9,718 nt of DNA from Deltaproteobacteria bacterium RIFOXYA12_FULL_61_11 (lineage in GTDB: Bacteria > Bdellovibrionota_F > JAHFAK01 > YA12-FULL-61-11). Of this stretch, positions 9 through 5,325 are shown piece by piece. Made by a program: the position numbers and the translations under genes. The DNA lies in NCBI GenBank assembly GCA_001799195.1, contig MGSU01000034.1, forward strand, positions 1 to 9,718, given 5' to 3'. Under the pieces are notes generated by a model. That model did no database searches. It worked only from the letters and a program-made list of their open reading frames with translations, and was not told the DNA's origin. Every line of letters starts with the position of its first letter. Position 1 is the first letter of the stretch.

Positions 9-887
9 ATGAGGCCGTCAGCCATCGCCATCTGCCTCGTCCTGTTGCTCGCGGGGAGCGGCCTTGCCGCCGCCAAGACCGTGACCGACCTCGCCAATTT
101 CGAAGTGCCGCGGGCCAACCCGGCCAATCGCATCGCCTGCAAGGGCCAATCCTTCCTCGCCAGATTCCACAACCCGTTCGAGAACAAGCGCATGACCGGT
201 CCGCAGCTCCTCCGCAAGCTCGCCGGTGCCTTCGAATGCGCCTTCCTGAACCGCGACCTCTCCCTGCTCGATCGCTTCATCGCCACGGTCGACGAGCACC
301 TGCGCAACGACAGCGAGGTTATCGCTGGCCTGATCATCGACAAACATGCCAAGGTCGGCGCCAGCCTCAAAATGATCGAGCAGCAGCGCCGCGAGTACGA
401 AGAACAACTCGACGAGCTGGCCGAACAAGAGGCCGCCTACAGCGATCAAGTCGAGGTCGCCGAGACGATCTTCCTCTTGCAGACACAGCAGTTGTCCCTG
501 GAAGAACTCGAGACCCGCCTGGTCGACACGGCCGGCAAGATCGCCGACCTCGAACAGATCATGGCCGGGCGCAAGGAACTCTACAAACTCTACAAGGACA
601 TCATCGATCGCAAGTACCAGCTCTATCTCGAGCGCACCACCAAGATGAAGTCGATCAAAGCGGTGCGAGAGGACGTCCGGCGGTACTTCGCGACCCAGGA
701 CGCCAAGGAGGCCATGGTCCGTTTCGAGGCCGACACCGCCTTCTTCTCCTCCGAACAGTTACTCGACTTCCATACCCGGGTTATCGACCTGGTCCAGGAA
801 AACCACCCCCAGGACCTCCTCGCCGATCCGGAGAACGTGCCGAGCGATGTCCAGGCCATCATTGACCGCGCCAGGGGGAAACGCTGA
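9..887 (+). CDS. Secreted coiled-coil protein of unknown function (gene 1 of a four-gene exported cluster)
   Basis: 292 residues. I do not recognise the family. The N-terminus is a clear Sec signal peptide: a short basic start, a hydrophobic run at about residues 5-18, and an Ala-rich cleavage region near 20-22. The cysteine in the signal (C9) is not in a lipobox, so a soluble periplasmic or secreted protein is more likely than a lipoprotein. The mature part has two cysteines (C44, C77), then a long charged helical region at about 100-235 rich in Glu, Gln, Lys and Leu, typical of coiled coil. It ends with a helical tail containing RVID (257-260), DPE (273-275) and QAII..AR (282-289). The same landmarks occur in the next gene, so the two look like diverged paralogs. 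A GAG a few bases before the ATG may be the end of a ribosome site that lies mostly outside the window. The reading frame, signal peptide and codon pattern make the gene itself secure; its function is unknown. Confidence 0.8.
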   Translation: MRPSAIAICLVLLLAGSGLAAAKTVTDLANFEVPRANPANRIACKGQSFLARFHNPFENKRMTGPQLLRKLAGAFECAFLNRDLSLLDRFIATVDEHLRNDSEVIAGLIIDKHAKVGASLKMIEQQRREYEEQLDELAEQEAAYSDQVEVAETIFLLQTQQLSLEELETRLVDTAGKIADLEQIMAGRKELYKLYKDIIDRKYQLYLERTTKMKSIKAVREDVRRYFATQDAKEAMVRFEADTAFFSSEQLLDFHTRVIDLVQENHPQDLLADPENVPSDVQAIIDRARGKR

Positions 888-937
888 ACCCGGAACGATG
901 AGCATGATCAGGAATATCGATACGACCAATACGTCGA

Positions 938-947
938 AAGGAGAGAG
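938..947 (+). promoter_or_regulatory. Ribosome binding site that fixes the start of gene 2
   Basis: AAGGAGAGAG ends one base before the ATG at 949, with its AGGAG core about 6 bases away. It is much stronger than anything before the in-frame upstream ATG codons at 847 or 898. It therefore supports 949 as the main start, which also places a good signal peptide at the N-terminus. Confidence 0.7.
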
Positions 948-948
948 T

Positions 949-1734
949 ATGAGCATGATCGTCAAGACCCTCGTCCTCGGGCTGCTCTGCACCATGGCCG
1001 TACCTGCGTGGGCCGGCAGACAGAAAACCTGCGATCCGGCCAACATCGACATCAAGAACGCGAAGGGGTGCGGCCGCATCGAGGTCTTCAGCCGCTTCGC
1101 CCTTGGAAACCTCAATCCGTGCGACGTTCTGCGCTGCAGCGTGGCCACCAAGAACGCCGACCTGCTCGAACGCTGGCTCACCTCGGTCGAGCGTTCGTGG
1201 GAAAAGGCCTACGCCGGGGGAGAACTCGAGCGCCAGGAAGCGGAAGTCGCAAAGCTGCAGAAAGACATGACCTCCCTGCGCCGCGACATCGCCTCGCTCG
1301 AGGCAAGAATCGCCGGTACCGCCACTGACGCCGAGGCCTTGCCCTATGCGCGGGACATCGAGCTGAAGGAAGGCCGGCTCGCCATTGCCGAGGAAACTCT
1401 CAAGGTACTCACTACCACCCTCACGGCCATGACCGGCGAACGGAACCGAACGAAACAGAACATCGAGAAGGCGCGGGAACTGCTCTCCACCATCGAACTG
1501 ATGAAGGTGGAAGGCCCGGGAGATCTCGACCGGGATCACCTGCTCGACGCCTTCGACGCCGCCGTCAGCCTCGAGAGCATCGATACCCTGGCCCGCCGAG
1601 TCATCGACGCCAGCCGCGAGGGTTTCGAGGACGAGGACCGCACGACGGACCCAGAAGGGAACGCGAAAACCCAGGACATCATCAAGAAGGCCCGGGAACG
1701 CGCCGCCAAGAAGCAATCCCTCGGCGTGAAATAA
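949..1734 (+). CDS. Secreted coiled-coil protein of unknown function (gene 2, likely paralog of gene 1)
   Basis: 261 residues from the ATG at 949. The frame is open from an ATG at 847, but that start would overlap gene 1 and push the signal peptide 34 residues inward. The N-terminus is a signal peptide with an AWA cleavage site after about A22. Four mature cysteines follow (C28, C41, C58, C63), then a helical charged region at about 90-190 with strong coiled-coil character (heptad-like Leu/Ile among Glu, Lys and Arg). The C-terminal tail carries RVID (217-220), DPE (234-236) and QDII..AR (242-249), matching the order seen at the end of gene 1. C28 and C63 are spaced much like C44 and C77 of gene 1 and flank a similar SRF/ARF segment. 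Gene 1 ends 61 bases upstream and gene 3 starts 13 bases downstream, so co-transcription is likely. Function is unknown; a periplasmic or secreted structural or adaptor role is only inference. Confidence 0.8.
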   Translation: MSMIVKTLVLGLLCTMAVPAWAGRQKTCDPANIDIKNAKGCGRIEVFSRFALGNLNPCDVLRCSVATKNADLLERWLTSVERSWEKAYAGGELERQEAEVAKLQKDMTSLRRDIASLEARIAGTATDAEALPYARDIELKEGRLAIAEETLKVLTTTLTAMTGERNRTKQNIEKARELLSTIELMKVEGPGDLDRDHLLDAFDAAVSLESIDTLARRVIDASREGFEDEDRTTDPEGNAKTQDIIKKARERAAKKQSLGVK

Positions 1735-1747
1735 TGGAGGTGCGAGC

Positions 1748-3295
1748 ATGAACCAACGACACGTACTCTCGAACCTCCTGCTCTGTTGCCTCGCGATCGT
1801 CCTGGCGGTATGCCCTGCGGCCCTGGCCGACGGTCAAGACCTCCTCAAGATGCTCGCCGACCAAGAACCCCTGGCCGAAGACCTAGCAGAGACCCTCACG
1901 GCCGAGAACGTGGCTGAGGCGACCGCGGCCGTCGAAGAAATGAGCCCGGCCGAGGTGGAGCAGGCCGTACTCGAGGCCGGCGAACAAAAAGGCGGTCTTC
2001 TGCAACGCCTCGGCTTCTCGGAAAAAGCGTCCCAGCTCCGCACCTTCGTCTCGAGGTTCGCCGAGAAGAACGAGCTGCTCCGTGAACTCAAGAAGTTTAC
2101 CGAGAGCGAGGAGGTCGACGCCGTGGTGAAGGCCAGCGGCGGAGTGGCCGGGGCGAGCGCCATGGCCAGTTTGGTCGCCGGTATCCTGGCCAAGCGTGCC
2201 TCCGGAGACAAGGCGAAAAAATGGCGAGGCATCCGCAACGCCATGTTTGCCCTGGGAGCCTGTGCCACCCTGACCGGCGTGCACCGTTACTGGAAGAACG
2301 GCCAGGAGGACGGCGAGGAGGACAGCGCTGCCGCGGGCCATTCTTTCAAGAAGGACGTGCTCTCGCCCGTGCTCCAAACCACCGCCTGTCTCGTCGGTGC
2401 CATCGGCGTCAACCTCCTGCTCAAGAAAGCCAAACGTTCCTGGATGTACCATCACCACGACTACTTCAAGCTCGTGCGGAAGGACGGAGCCTGGGGCAAG
2501 CTGAAGATGCGCGAGCCGGTCTTCTACCTGCCGCTCTCGGATACCGGGCTCGAAAACCTGATGGGGAAGGACGTCGGTGCCTACCGCTTGGTCGAGGGCG
2601 AGGGCAAGGGCCAGAGCTTCGAGGCCGAGGACGGCATTCTCGGCAACGGGCTGCGGTTCCGCCATCCCGATGCCGCGATCCGAGTCGAGAAGCTCTCCGA
2701 GGTCTTGAAGCGCAACAAACAGGCGACCCTGACCTTCTGGGTCAACTTCGAACAGTACCCCTCTTTCATCCTCGGACAACGCGTCCTCGAAGAGAAGGTG
2801 CCAGAGCTCAGCCACGAGCCGATGAGCTTCTTCCTGGCCGCCGACAGCAAACTCTACTTCAATTTCAACAAACTCCAGAGCAACGGTGTGTTCAAGAAGG
2901 AGCAGAGTATCGAGGCCTACTACAGCACCATGCCTCGCGGCGACTCGGCGCTCCACAAGTGGCGGTACATGGCCGTGGTCATCCGTCGCGAGGGAGGCGA
3001 ATACCTGCTCGACACCCACGTTTCCTCCTTCGACTGGGGCGAGGTGGTGTTCATGAACCAGGGCGAACACAAAACCGTCCGCGTACCGGCGGACGAGACC
3101 GACCTCTTCGGCCCCGCCCCCTGGTTCTTCGGCGGCAGCTCAGTGGCCAAGGGGGACAAGTACTTCTACCAACGACTCCCTCAGGGCAGCGGGTTCACCG
3201 GCCTCCTCGACGAGGTGCGGGTCTACGACTTCGCCCTGAACCGCGAGCAGATGATCTTCGACCGCGACGTAGCGCAAGACATCGACGCCGAGTGA
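1748..3295 (+). CDS. Exported protein with hydrophobic segments and a C-terminal LamG/concanavalin-like domain (gene 3)
   Basis: 515 residues. The start is supported by GGAGGTG at 1736-1742, and the stop of gene 2 lies only 13 bases upstream. Residues 1-27 form a signal peptide with an ALA cleavage site. Residues 30-125 are acidic and helical. Three hydrophobic stretches follow at about 131-148, 162-178 and 205-225, separated by charged linkers, so the protein may be membrane-anchored. A basic, HHH-containing link (235-237) leads into the C-terminal half, about 258-510. This half has the hallmarks of a LamG/jelly-roll domain: an opening strand VFYLPLSD, then a GNGLRF motif (299-304), TLTFWVNF (327-334), and the near-terminal GLLDEVRVYDFAL (485-497). 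That last motif is characteristic of Laminin_G_3-type domains. Such domains usually bind glycans or proteins on the cell surface; the ligand here cannot be told from sequence. The overall architecture is not one I can name. Confidence 0.8.
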   Translation: MNQRHVLSNLLLCCLAIVLAVCPAALADGQDLLKMLADQEPLAEDLAETLTAENVAEATAAVEEMSPAEVEQAVLEAGEQKGGLLQRLGFSEKASQLRTFVSRFAEKNELLRELKKFTESEEVDAVVKASGGVAGASAMASLVAGILAKRASGDKAKKWRGIRNAMFALGACATLTGVHRYWKNGQEDGEEDSAAAGHSFKKDVLSPVLQTTACLVGAIGVNLLLKKAKRSWMYHHHDYFKLVRKDGAWGKLKMREPVFYLPLSDTGLENLMGKDVGAYRLVEGEGKGQSFEAEDGILGNGLRFRHPDAAIRVEKLSEVLKRNKQATLTFWVNFEQYPSFILGQRVLEEKVPELSHEPMSFFLAADSKLYFNFNKLQSNGVFKKEQSIEAYYSTMPRGDSALHKWRYMAVVIRREGGEYLLDTHVSSFDWGEVVFMNQGEHKTVRVPADETDLFGPAPWFFGGSSVAKGDKYFYQRLPQGSGFTGLLDEVRVYDFALNREQMIFDRDVAQDIDAE

Positions 3296-3329
3296 CAGAT
3301 CCCTGCAGGCAGCCTCGAGGAGTACGACC

Positions 3330-4484
3330 ATGCGCATGCCACTCTTCCTTCTTGCACTCTTGCTGCTCAGCTTCTCCAGCAAGGTCCAGGCGGCAGAGGA
3401 AGATCCTGCCACAGCATGCCTGGCATTCCTAAACGACCACAAAGAGTTGCGTGGGATGCCCGATCCCGAGCTGACCTGCGCCCGGGTCGGCACCACCGTG
3501 GGCTTGGCCTGTCTGCAGACGGTCTTGCCCCACGCCAAGCACTGGCGCGAGGAACATACTATCGCAGACGTGGTCGAGGGGTGCGCCGGTTTGCGCAGCC
3601 TGGAAGGCGTGGTCTACCTCGACCGGCTCTCCGACCAAGGCGGATTGACCTACGAGGACCTCCTCGAGGCCAAGGCCATCGAAGGCTATTTCTCGGACAC
3701 CAAGCTTGCGACCGAGTTGATCGAGAAGCTCTCGTCTTACTCCGAGTTCCGCTCCGTGCACGACCAGCTCAAACAGAAGGGGATCTACCGGGCCTCGGCC
3801 ATTGCCTCTAACCTGGCCGGCGTGGTCGCGATCCTAGGCTTCGCCTGTGTCTTCGCCCAACCGACCTGTGCCGCGCTGGTCGGCGCGATCGTCGGCCAGG
3901 CCGTGGCGACGCACACCGTCGGCACGGTGGGGTTGCTCACCTTCGTCGGGGCGTTCTCGGGCAGCGGTTTCTTGAAAATACCCCAGTCCTGTCTCGACGA
4001 GAAAGACGGTATCCCGGTCGGTGAGGAGCGCCTCAGCATGGACGAGATCAACCGGCGCATGGCCGGGCTCTCGGAGGTGGTGGTCGACTTCTTCACCCAG
4101 GCCTTCAAGACCCGGGGGCACCAGCACCTGTTCAGCAACTACGGCGACTTCGCCTTCGTGACCTTCAAGCATTGCAGACGGGTGAAGAGTCTCTTCTACA
4201 TCGACAAGATCGTCTTCGCCGACAAGAAGCACTACGTCGGCACGGTGACCAGCCGCGGCAAACTTGGTTTCGGGTTATTCGAGATCAAGACCAAGCTGGA
4301 TATCCCGCGTCTCCCGTACCTGAATATCGACTTCATGGCTCCGAACATGGCCGCGGATCCCATGAACGAGGATATGGAGTACGTGGTCGAGGGCAGGAGG
4401 CAGAAGCCGGCCATGTTCACCATCCGCCACACGCAACGCCAGTTCCTGGTCCTCAACTCCCGCCTGCTCGAGGAGATCGACTAA
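3330..4484 (+). CDS. Exported cysteine-containing protein with a hydrophobic hairpin, unknown function (gene 4)
   Basis: 384 residues. The start has a good ribosome site (GAGGAG, 3317-3322, 7 bases before the ATG). Residues 1-21 are a signal peptide with probable cleavage around the VQAA region. The mature N-terminal domain (about 25-145) holds C30, C50, C61 and C85 and is mainly helical. A long Ala/Gly/Val-rich hydrophobic zone at about 155-213 could form two or three membrane helices; C173 and C180 bracket the first turn. The C-terminal 170 residues (C221, C282) are soluble and look beta-rich, with alternating hydrophobic residues around 284-320. The mature protein has eight cysteines in all, consistent with disulfides in an oxidising compartment, though pairing is inference. 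It starts 34 bases after gene 3 and is probably the last gene of the operon, because the next gene faces it. I do not recognise the family. Confidence 0.78.
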   Translation: MRMPLFLLALLLLSFSSKVQAAEEDPATACLAFLNDHKELRGMPDPELTCARVGTTVGLACLQTVLPHAKHWREEHTIADVVEGCAGLRSLEGVVYLDRLSDQGGLTYEDLLEAKAIEGYFSDTKLATELIEKLSSYSEFRSVHDQLKQKGIYRASAIASNLAGVVAILGFACVFAQPTCAALVGAIVGQAVATHTVGTVGLLTFVGAFSGSGFLKIPQSCLDEKDGIPVGEERLSMDEINRRMAGLSEVVVDFFTQAFKTRGHQHLFSNYGDFAFVTFKHCRRVKSLFYIDKIVFADKKHYVGTVTSRGKLGFGLFEIKTKLDIPRLPYLNIDFMAPNMAADPMNEDMEYVVEGRRQKPAMFTIRHTQRQFLVLNSRLLEEID

Positions 4485-4489
4485 GCCGT

Positions 4490-5128
4490 TCAGCCCTCTG
4501 GTTTTCTCAAGACCACCAGTTCAATCGCGCCGAAGGTGACCAACTTCCGCTCTACTAGCTCCACCCTGGGGAGCCCCGCGATCAGAGGCGAGAGGCCTCC
4601 GGCCAGTTGGTACTGCTGCTGGCGGCGTAGGTGTTCCAGCCCAGCCGCGCATTCGAAGCCGAGGATGACCAGCCGGGCCAACCACCCCAGGGGGAAGGAA
4701 TAGGGTCCGGGGTGGAAATCCACCAGCAGGATCCTTCCCCCCGGCCGGACCACCCGGAAGAGTTCGGCCAGGGCCACAACCCGGACTTCGGCGGGCAGCT
4801 CGTGCAGGGTCAGCATGGCCAGCCCGAGCTCAAACGCCGCCGACGGGTAGGGCAGGGCTTCAGCATTGCCGAGCGTGAGTTCGGCCTCGTCGCCGAGCTT
4901 GCGGATCGCCCGGCCGAGCATGGCCGGGGAGGCATCCAACCCGGTGACCGTATAGCCCGCCCGGCGGAACAACACGAGGTTGCTGCCGGTGCCGCAACCG
5001 ACCTCGAACATCATCCTGCCCGCGCCGGGTCCTGCCAGGCGCAGGGCCAAGGCTCGCAGGCCGGCGTTGAAAGGTTCGACTACAAGGTCGAAGTACGGAG
5101 CTTGGAACGCATAGGGATCGCGAGCCAT
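4490..5128 (-). CDS. Class I SAM-dependent methyltransferase (Methyltransf_11/UbiE-like fold)
   Basis: 212 residues from the ATG at 5128. The frame is open to an ATG at 5218, but the extra 30 residues are Pro/Ser/Gly-rich and unlike the family. The 5128 start has AGAGG five bases upstream and begins right before the conserved N-terminal helix (YAFQAPYFD). Family motifs are in order: the SAM-binding glycine loop FEVGCGTGS (41-49), the acidic residue ending strand 2 in GLDAS (D65), the NAEALPYP segment (88-95), and the LFRVVRPGGRILLVDF post-motif region (123-138). The protein is cytosolic and transfers a methyl group from S-adenosylmethionine. The substrate cannot be assigned; quinone, lipid or small-molecule acceptors all occur in this superfamily. 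It converges on gene 4 with 5 bases between stop codons and diverges from lolC. I saw no clear Rho-independent terminator between the two converging genes. Confidence 0.88.
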   Translation of the reverse strand: MARDPYAFQAPYFDLVVEPFNAGLRALALRLAGPGAGRMMFEVGCGTGSNLVLFRRAGYTVTGLDASPAMLGRAIRKLGDEAELTLGNAEALPYPSAAFELGLAMLTLHELPAEVRVVALAELFRVVRPGGRILLVDFHPGPYSFPLGWLARLVILGFECAAGLEHLRRQQQYQLAGGLSPLIAGLPRVELVERKLVTFGAIELVVLRKPEG

Positions 5129-5160
5129 GCACACCTCTGGGAAGAAGAGTAGCACCGAGA

Positions 5161-5186
5161 CCCTACCCCGGGTACCTGGGGTAGGG
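5161..5186. repeat. 26-bp near-perfect palindrome upstream of the methyltransferase gene
   Basis: CCCTACCCC (5161-5169) pairs exactly with GGGGTAGGG (5178-5186). The 8-base centre contains GGTACC on the same axis, so only one pair (G5170/T5177) is mismatched. Neither strand has a T-run after it, so it is unlikely to be a Rho-independent terminator. Lying about 33 bases before the methyltransferase start, it could be an operator for a dimeric regulator or a hairpin in the mRNA leader. Which of these is not decidable from sequence. Confidence 0.6.
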
Positions 5187-5325
5187 CAAGCGGGAGAACT
5201 TCCCCCAGGGGACTTCACCGAACGCGTGCCGCTCCCAGGGCACCGACGAGCGCCGGATGCTCGTGGAAGACGCGATCCAGGGTCTCGGCGATGGCATGGT
5301 CCCCGCTCGTTCCGCCATTACCATG

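Follow-up and report, generated by a model that had tools for sequence, protein, structure and literature searches.

The stretch of DNA analysed here (the window) spans 9,718 bases from the start of a contig of 18,334 bases, taken from a draft assembly of 4.64 Mb in 342 contigs that is ~87% complete. It opens with four genes, A to D, whose coordinates and common strand (Table 1) were confirmed as first described, with intergenic gaps of 61 (A/B), 13 (B/C) and 34 (C/D) bases. SD-like sites lie before B (AGGAGA, with an ATG start), before C (GGAGGT) and before D (GAGGAG), and the layout is operon-like. The A–D frames score 0.41–0.59 bits per codon, as against −1.8 to 0.22 in the other five frames, their GC3 is 0.82–0.85 and their codon use resembles that of lolC, lolD and bamA on the same contig. 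Because the scores are like those of these three neighbours and well above those of the other frames, A–D look like real genes. Window base 1 is also the start of the contig, so that the DNA upstream of A is off the contig and the run may therefore continue upstream. A scan for promoters and terminators gave nothing above chance, and Rfam gave no match. At the right edge of the window, bamA is broken by a short run of N (a scaffold gap, about 9717-9731). Further along the contig, a putatively exported protein of 796 residues contains what may be a caspase-like His/Cys arrangement (MFHGHSNYQ ... LLVLESCDSF), noted by eye alone.

Table 1. Features of the A–D locus and of related or neighbouring loci (window coordinates unless a contig is given; export is predicted)
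Feature	Location	Strand	Description
Gene A, 292 aa	9-887	+	Exported; charged, helical-looking; Cys44 and Cys77 in mature part
Gene B, 261 aa	949-1734	+	Exported; charged, helical-looking; probable distant paralogue of A
Gene C, 515 aa	1748-3295	+	Exported; helical N-part, hydrophobic segments, LamG-like C-terminus
Gene D, 384 aa	3330-4484	+	Exported; Cys-patterned N-domain, hydrophobic hairpin, C-terminal domain
SAM-dependent methyltransferase	4490-5128	-	Opposes the A–D run; outside the cluster, between D and lolC
End of D, methyltransferase and intergenic DNA	4399-5308		Diverged second copy on contig C160 (4207-5270), 86-88% identical
796-residue protein	own contig, beyond window, 10953-13343	-	Exported
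P0005, 391 aa	contig C64		Exported; D-like Cys-rich N-domain, then LamG
P0006	contig C340		Signal peptide, Cys-patterned helices, two hydrophobic segments, C-terminal domain
P0007	contig C309		Signal peptide, Cys-patterned helices, two hydrophobic segments, C-terminal domain
P0008, 353 aa	contig C340, stretch L052 7008-8069	-	Exported orphan, 10 bases downstream of P0006
P0009	contig C340, stretch L052 5553-6524	-	Nine C-x9-11-C units in tandem, spaced by roughly 30 residues
Open frame, 2281 residues	contig C188, stretch L039 1-6846		5′ end off contig; three tandem LamG matches

Each of the four predicted proteins starts with a basic, hydrophobic and small-residue segment that ends in a plausible signal peptidase I site, in agreement with the signal peptides initially ascribed to all of them; these were judged by eye, and the same reading found no canonical lipobox in the signal segments. 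A and B contain many charged residues and little proline or glycine. For neither did Pfam, NCBIfam, PHROGs or PADLOC give a family beyond weak noise: the matches were to coiled-coil-rich models (LmuB, PbeC, SMC-like, Rad50) and we took them as composition effects, setting aside membership of these families. The preliminary description had called A and B two coiled-coil proteins. Their composition and the weak matches fit with this, but a simple test of heptad periodicity did not exceed shuffles, and for this reason coiled coil stays a likelihood. The two are probably distant paralogues that form a weakly similar pair, since the score of their global alignment was reached by 0 of 1000 shuffles in one comparison and 1 of 1000 in another. 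Local similarity was not significant (61 of 1000 shuffles reached the score), and the resemblance is clearest at the C-terminus, with a DPE...II..AR motif in both. This relationship is supported, though more weakly than the D family and the C–D similarity presented below; none was detectable by sequence comparison between A or B on one side and C or D on the other.

D had been described as a cysteine-bearing protein with a hydrophobic hairpin, and it does carry eight cysteines and two hydrophobic segments (157-176 and 197-215) in a hairpin at about 155-215, which follows an N-domain (22-120) and precedes a C-terminal domain. The survey of its own genome, made by searches and on selected stretches of contigs, brought relatives. 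The resemblance between the N-domains of D and P0005 was first spotted by eye and then tested by shuffling, when 2-3 of 500 shuffles reached the score; a profile of these two N-domains, run against the genome, led to P0006 (E 6.8e-4) and P0007 (0.022). D and P0006 align locally with a score of 99 (z 12.5, 0 of 200 shuffles) over D residues of about 76-318, hairpin and C-terminal part included, and the pairwise z is 9.1 for P0006-P0007 and 5.1 for D-P0007. With D held out, an N-domain profile of P0005 to P0007 recovers it at E 5e-6, the best of 994 block-shuffled decoys reaching 0.024; a whole-length profile of P0006 and P0007 alone barely separates D from decoys. N-domain similarity beyond block-shuffled controls thus holds for D, P0006, P0007 and the N-domain of P0005, and hydropathy and alignment find a signal peptide, paired cysteines and two hydrophobic segments in D, P0006 and P0007. 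By these comparisons D is a member of a putatively exported in-genome family together with P0006 and P0007, which is a new finding. P0005 has LamG where the other three have the hairpin. The family appears to exchange its C-terminal parts, which is also new information.

The cysteines of the family follow an alternating spacing, of about 11 and then about 14-24 residues. In the register adopted, the pairs are 30/44, 55/77 and 88/107 in P0006 and 30/49, 59/80 and 91/111 in P0005. In D the pairs 30/50 and 61/85 are kept and the third is replaced by Tyr96 and Lys115, while P0007 lacks both cysteines of the first pair. Cysteines are thus lost two by two, which suggests disulphides between helices and hence an oxidising compartment; judging from four sequences, the helices of the N-domain are probably disulphide-stapled there. 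Pairing of the adjacent cysteines (C-x10-C) was considered too and rejected, as the losses in D and P0007 follow the first register and not this one.

C was described as combining hydrophobic stretches with a LamG domain, and both are present. Its N-part (28-128) is helical and is followed by hydrophobic segments at about 129-148, 163-180 and 207-225. The C-terminal part (about 318-501) matches Laminin_G_3 (PF13385, concanavalin A-like) over profile positions 12-149 of 151, with the typical GLLDEVRVYDFAL end motif; its 26.7 bits (E about 7e-6) are slightly below the gathering cut-off of 27.6, and unlike in Laminin_G_3 itself the domain is attached to a hydrophobic, helical N-part. It is the one recognisable domain within A–D, and profile searches thus brought C near to LamG and left A and B without a family. 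About a dozen LamG loci are found genome-wide, P0005 among them, mostly clear members unlike C, and none of those checked for sister clusters had relatives of A, B or the C N-part beside it. One open frame, on contig C188, is notable for its length and its tandem LamG matches (Table 1). C shares with D a stretch made of the helical N-part and the first hydrophobic segment, with a score of 69 that none of 1000 window shuffles and none of 1000 heptad-block shuffles reached; BLASTP, as a single comparison, gave E 0.002. C resembles D only, no similarity to P0006 or P0007 being detectable. Most likely, C is related to D but has diverged, with a LamG-like domain as its C-terminus.

Structure prediction from single sequences was of little help: the two models were poor (mean pLDDT 39 and 33.5), of no use for C and for most of D, and Foldseek found nothing. 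A sequence search of the PDB gave nothing for C, noise for D and nothing for the D-family profile. Within the D model, residues 25-105 were moderately confident, and with VIA-align they aligned best to helical-hairpin repeats of the TAL/BurrH type and similar solenoids (Z 5.8, 2.7 Å over 70 residues; Z 4.2, 2.8 Å over 69), values that are below the level meaningful alone, as Z<8 may reflect a common arrangement only. D resembles helical-hairpin solenoids in the ~30-residue spacing of its cysteine pairs, but differs from them in having no sequence relation and in its putative cysteine staples.

Of the D paralogues, P0007 lies between flagellar genes on one side and type I restriction-modification genes on the other, P0005 is flanked by opposite-strand genes and P0006 is next to P0008 and P0009, two more proteins that are exported or anchored. 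Genes resembling A, B or C were found beside none of the three. P0008 contains an internal repeat (DSDVVFYDDGTYMISDINGG / DNDLVYYEGHCYYVPGIYGG). P0009, which would have an N-terminal membrane anchor if an upstream start is used, has no match in Pfam or NCBIfam and may represent the stapled helical repeat of D in longer form. Another trace of D is found on contig C160: the last D codons, the methyltransferase gene and the next 180 bases or so recur there as a diverged second copy. In that copy a glycosyltransferase, seemingly without its N-terminal part, adjoins the D tail, and the D stop codon is followed by about 146 extra bases; the arrangement looks like a duplicated segment that carries a truncated D paralogue, or else like an assembly junction.

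No relatives of A–D were met in the other genomes searched. Neither C nor D had a match in a pattern scan of 84,980 species, and such scans, made from single sequences, detect close relatives only and have limited sensitivity for distant ones. A 386-genome sample contained nothing for A/B or the N-part of C and nothing for D outside its own genome, and G001, the one other genome of the phylum that was compared, had no homologue of A–D. Phages (searched with D), plasmids (D and P0006) and viral contigs (a pattern scan for C and the D-family profile) gave nothing, and in the literature nothing relevant was found on orphan exported LamG/coiled-coil clusters. This lack of homologues restricts the conclusions that can be drawn.

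The four genes had been proposed to form one envelope or secreted assembly. That this would be a recurring one is not supported: the neighbourhood survey, over the 386-genome samples, the 84,980-species scan and the D-paralogue loci, did not bring them together anywhere else. Since the D paralogues have no A–C neighbours and other genes occupy the corresponding place in G001, A–D do not form a conserved unit within the reach of these comparisons. Homologues that never co-occur, put forward at the outset as the observation that would speak against a common assembly, were found for D within its own genome only; A, B and C have no clear homologues. The preliminary description is supported, on the other hand, in the shared export, in the tight spacing and in matching the combination to no named system, as the Pfam, NCBIfam, PHROGs and PADLOC searches found none. 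Its suspicion that the nearby lipoprotein-export and barrel-insertion genes may be there by coincidence is probably right too. The LolC-LolD-BamA envelope block adjoins the A–D run on its contig, but the opposed methyltransferase stands between them, and G001, the sister genome, retains the block (lolC 47% identical) but has other genes upstream and lacks A–D. Neither a shared transcription unit nor a conserved adjacency that would place A–D in a Lol/Bam operon was found, and for these reasons the closeness is probably a coincidence.

How, then, can the run be explained? The reading that we favour, tentatively and at somewhat short of an even chance, is that A–D are at least in part one operon of lineage-restricted envelope proteins that arose mostly by in-genome duplication and domain shuffling, with D from its family, C as a relative and A/B as a soluble pair. 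C and D would be exported via Sec and would then insert by their hairpins into a membrane, most simply the inner one, with the domains on either side of the hairpins in the periplasm. Binding surfaces might be provided by the LamG-like domain and by the stapled helices, with A and B as soluble or bridging partners. The analysis shows the gene layout, the in-genome D family, the loss of cysteines in pairs and the local C–D similarity; where in the cell the proteins sit, the disulphides, the association of the four and the binding of ligands are inferred. A substantial but lesser possibility is that A–D are simply adjacent exported orphans, co-transcribed or not, which have separate jobs and build no common assembly. 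The D paralogues are indeed solitary (C309, C64) or placed by unrelated exported genes (P0008 and P0009 on C340), the four genes recur nowhere among the genomes searched and, on the assumption that about one-fifth of the genes are exported, several runs of four exported genes per genome are to be expected. However, the short gaps, the SD sites, the C–D similarity and the probable A–B pairing suggest a shared history of the cluster.

Basic residues flank the D hairpin. With periplasmic flanks this would agree poorly with the positive-inside rule, so that there is some room for a membrane-inserting, pore-like reading. In such a multi-component system the C and D hairpins would insert, A and B would be soluble helical components and LamG would aid binding. 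The hairpin turns are neutral or short in D (AQPT) and P0007 (KLPGEFF), C, D and P0007 contain segments rich in glycine and alanine, and the split between soluble and hydrophobic components is as in the tripartite alpha-pore-forming toxins of the Ahl/Smh type (PMC7979752). The likeness to AhlABC/SmhABC is in outline only, as several exported components of which some are soluble and some bear hairpins; in contrast to the tripartite ClyA-type toxins, A–D have no sequence match, another domain order and no conserved three-gene set. Since, in addition, no Pfam or NCBIfam family of pore-formers matches A–D (E up to 1), the hairpin does not, by sequence, lie within a long helical bundle of its own protein and D paralogues occur alone, we regard this reading as very unlikely. 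An artefact, with false ORFs or a foreign contig, is the most improbable of all: the genome is a fragmented draft of limited completeness and outside homologues are missing, but the codon use of A–D matches that of lolC, lolD and bamA beside them, G001 has relatives of lolC and bamA, and further contigs of the genome carry the D paralogues and the second methyltransferase segment.

A–D are real genes that match no known system and are ordinary in kind: lineage-restricted exported orphans, and, as things stand, typical of lineage-specific surface or periplasmic proteins. A more ambitious view, which we consider improbable, is that of a phylum-restricted modular exported assembly in which the paralogous hairpin proteins of the D family, with disulphide-stapled helical repeats, would enter a membrane and swap partners (C with A/B here, P0008/P0009 on C340), i.e. 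a new envelope or membrane-inserting system. If the reading favoured above holds, an undescribed exported family, with a probably stapled N-domain, a hairpin and a swappable C-terminus, would have expanded in one poorly sampled lineage and would offer a defined protein set for structure work.
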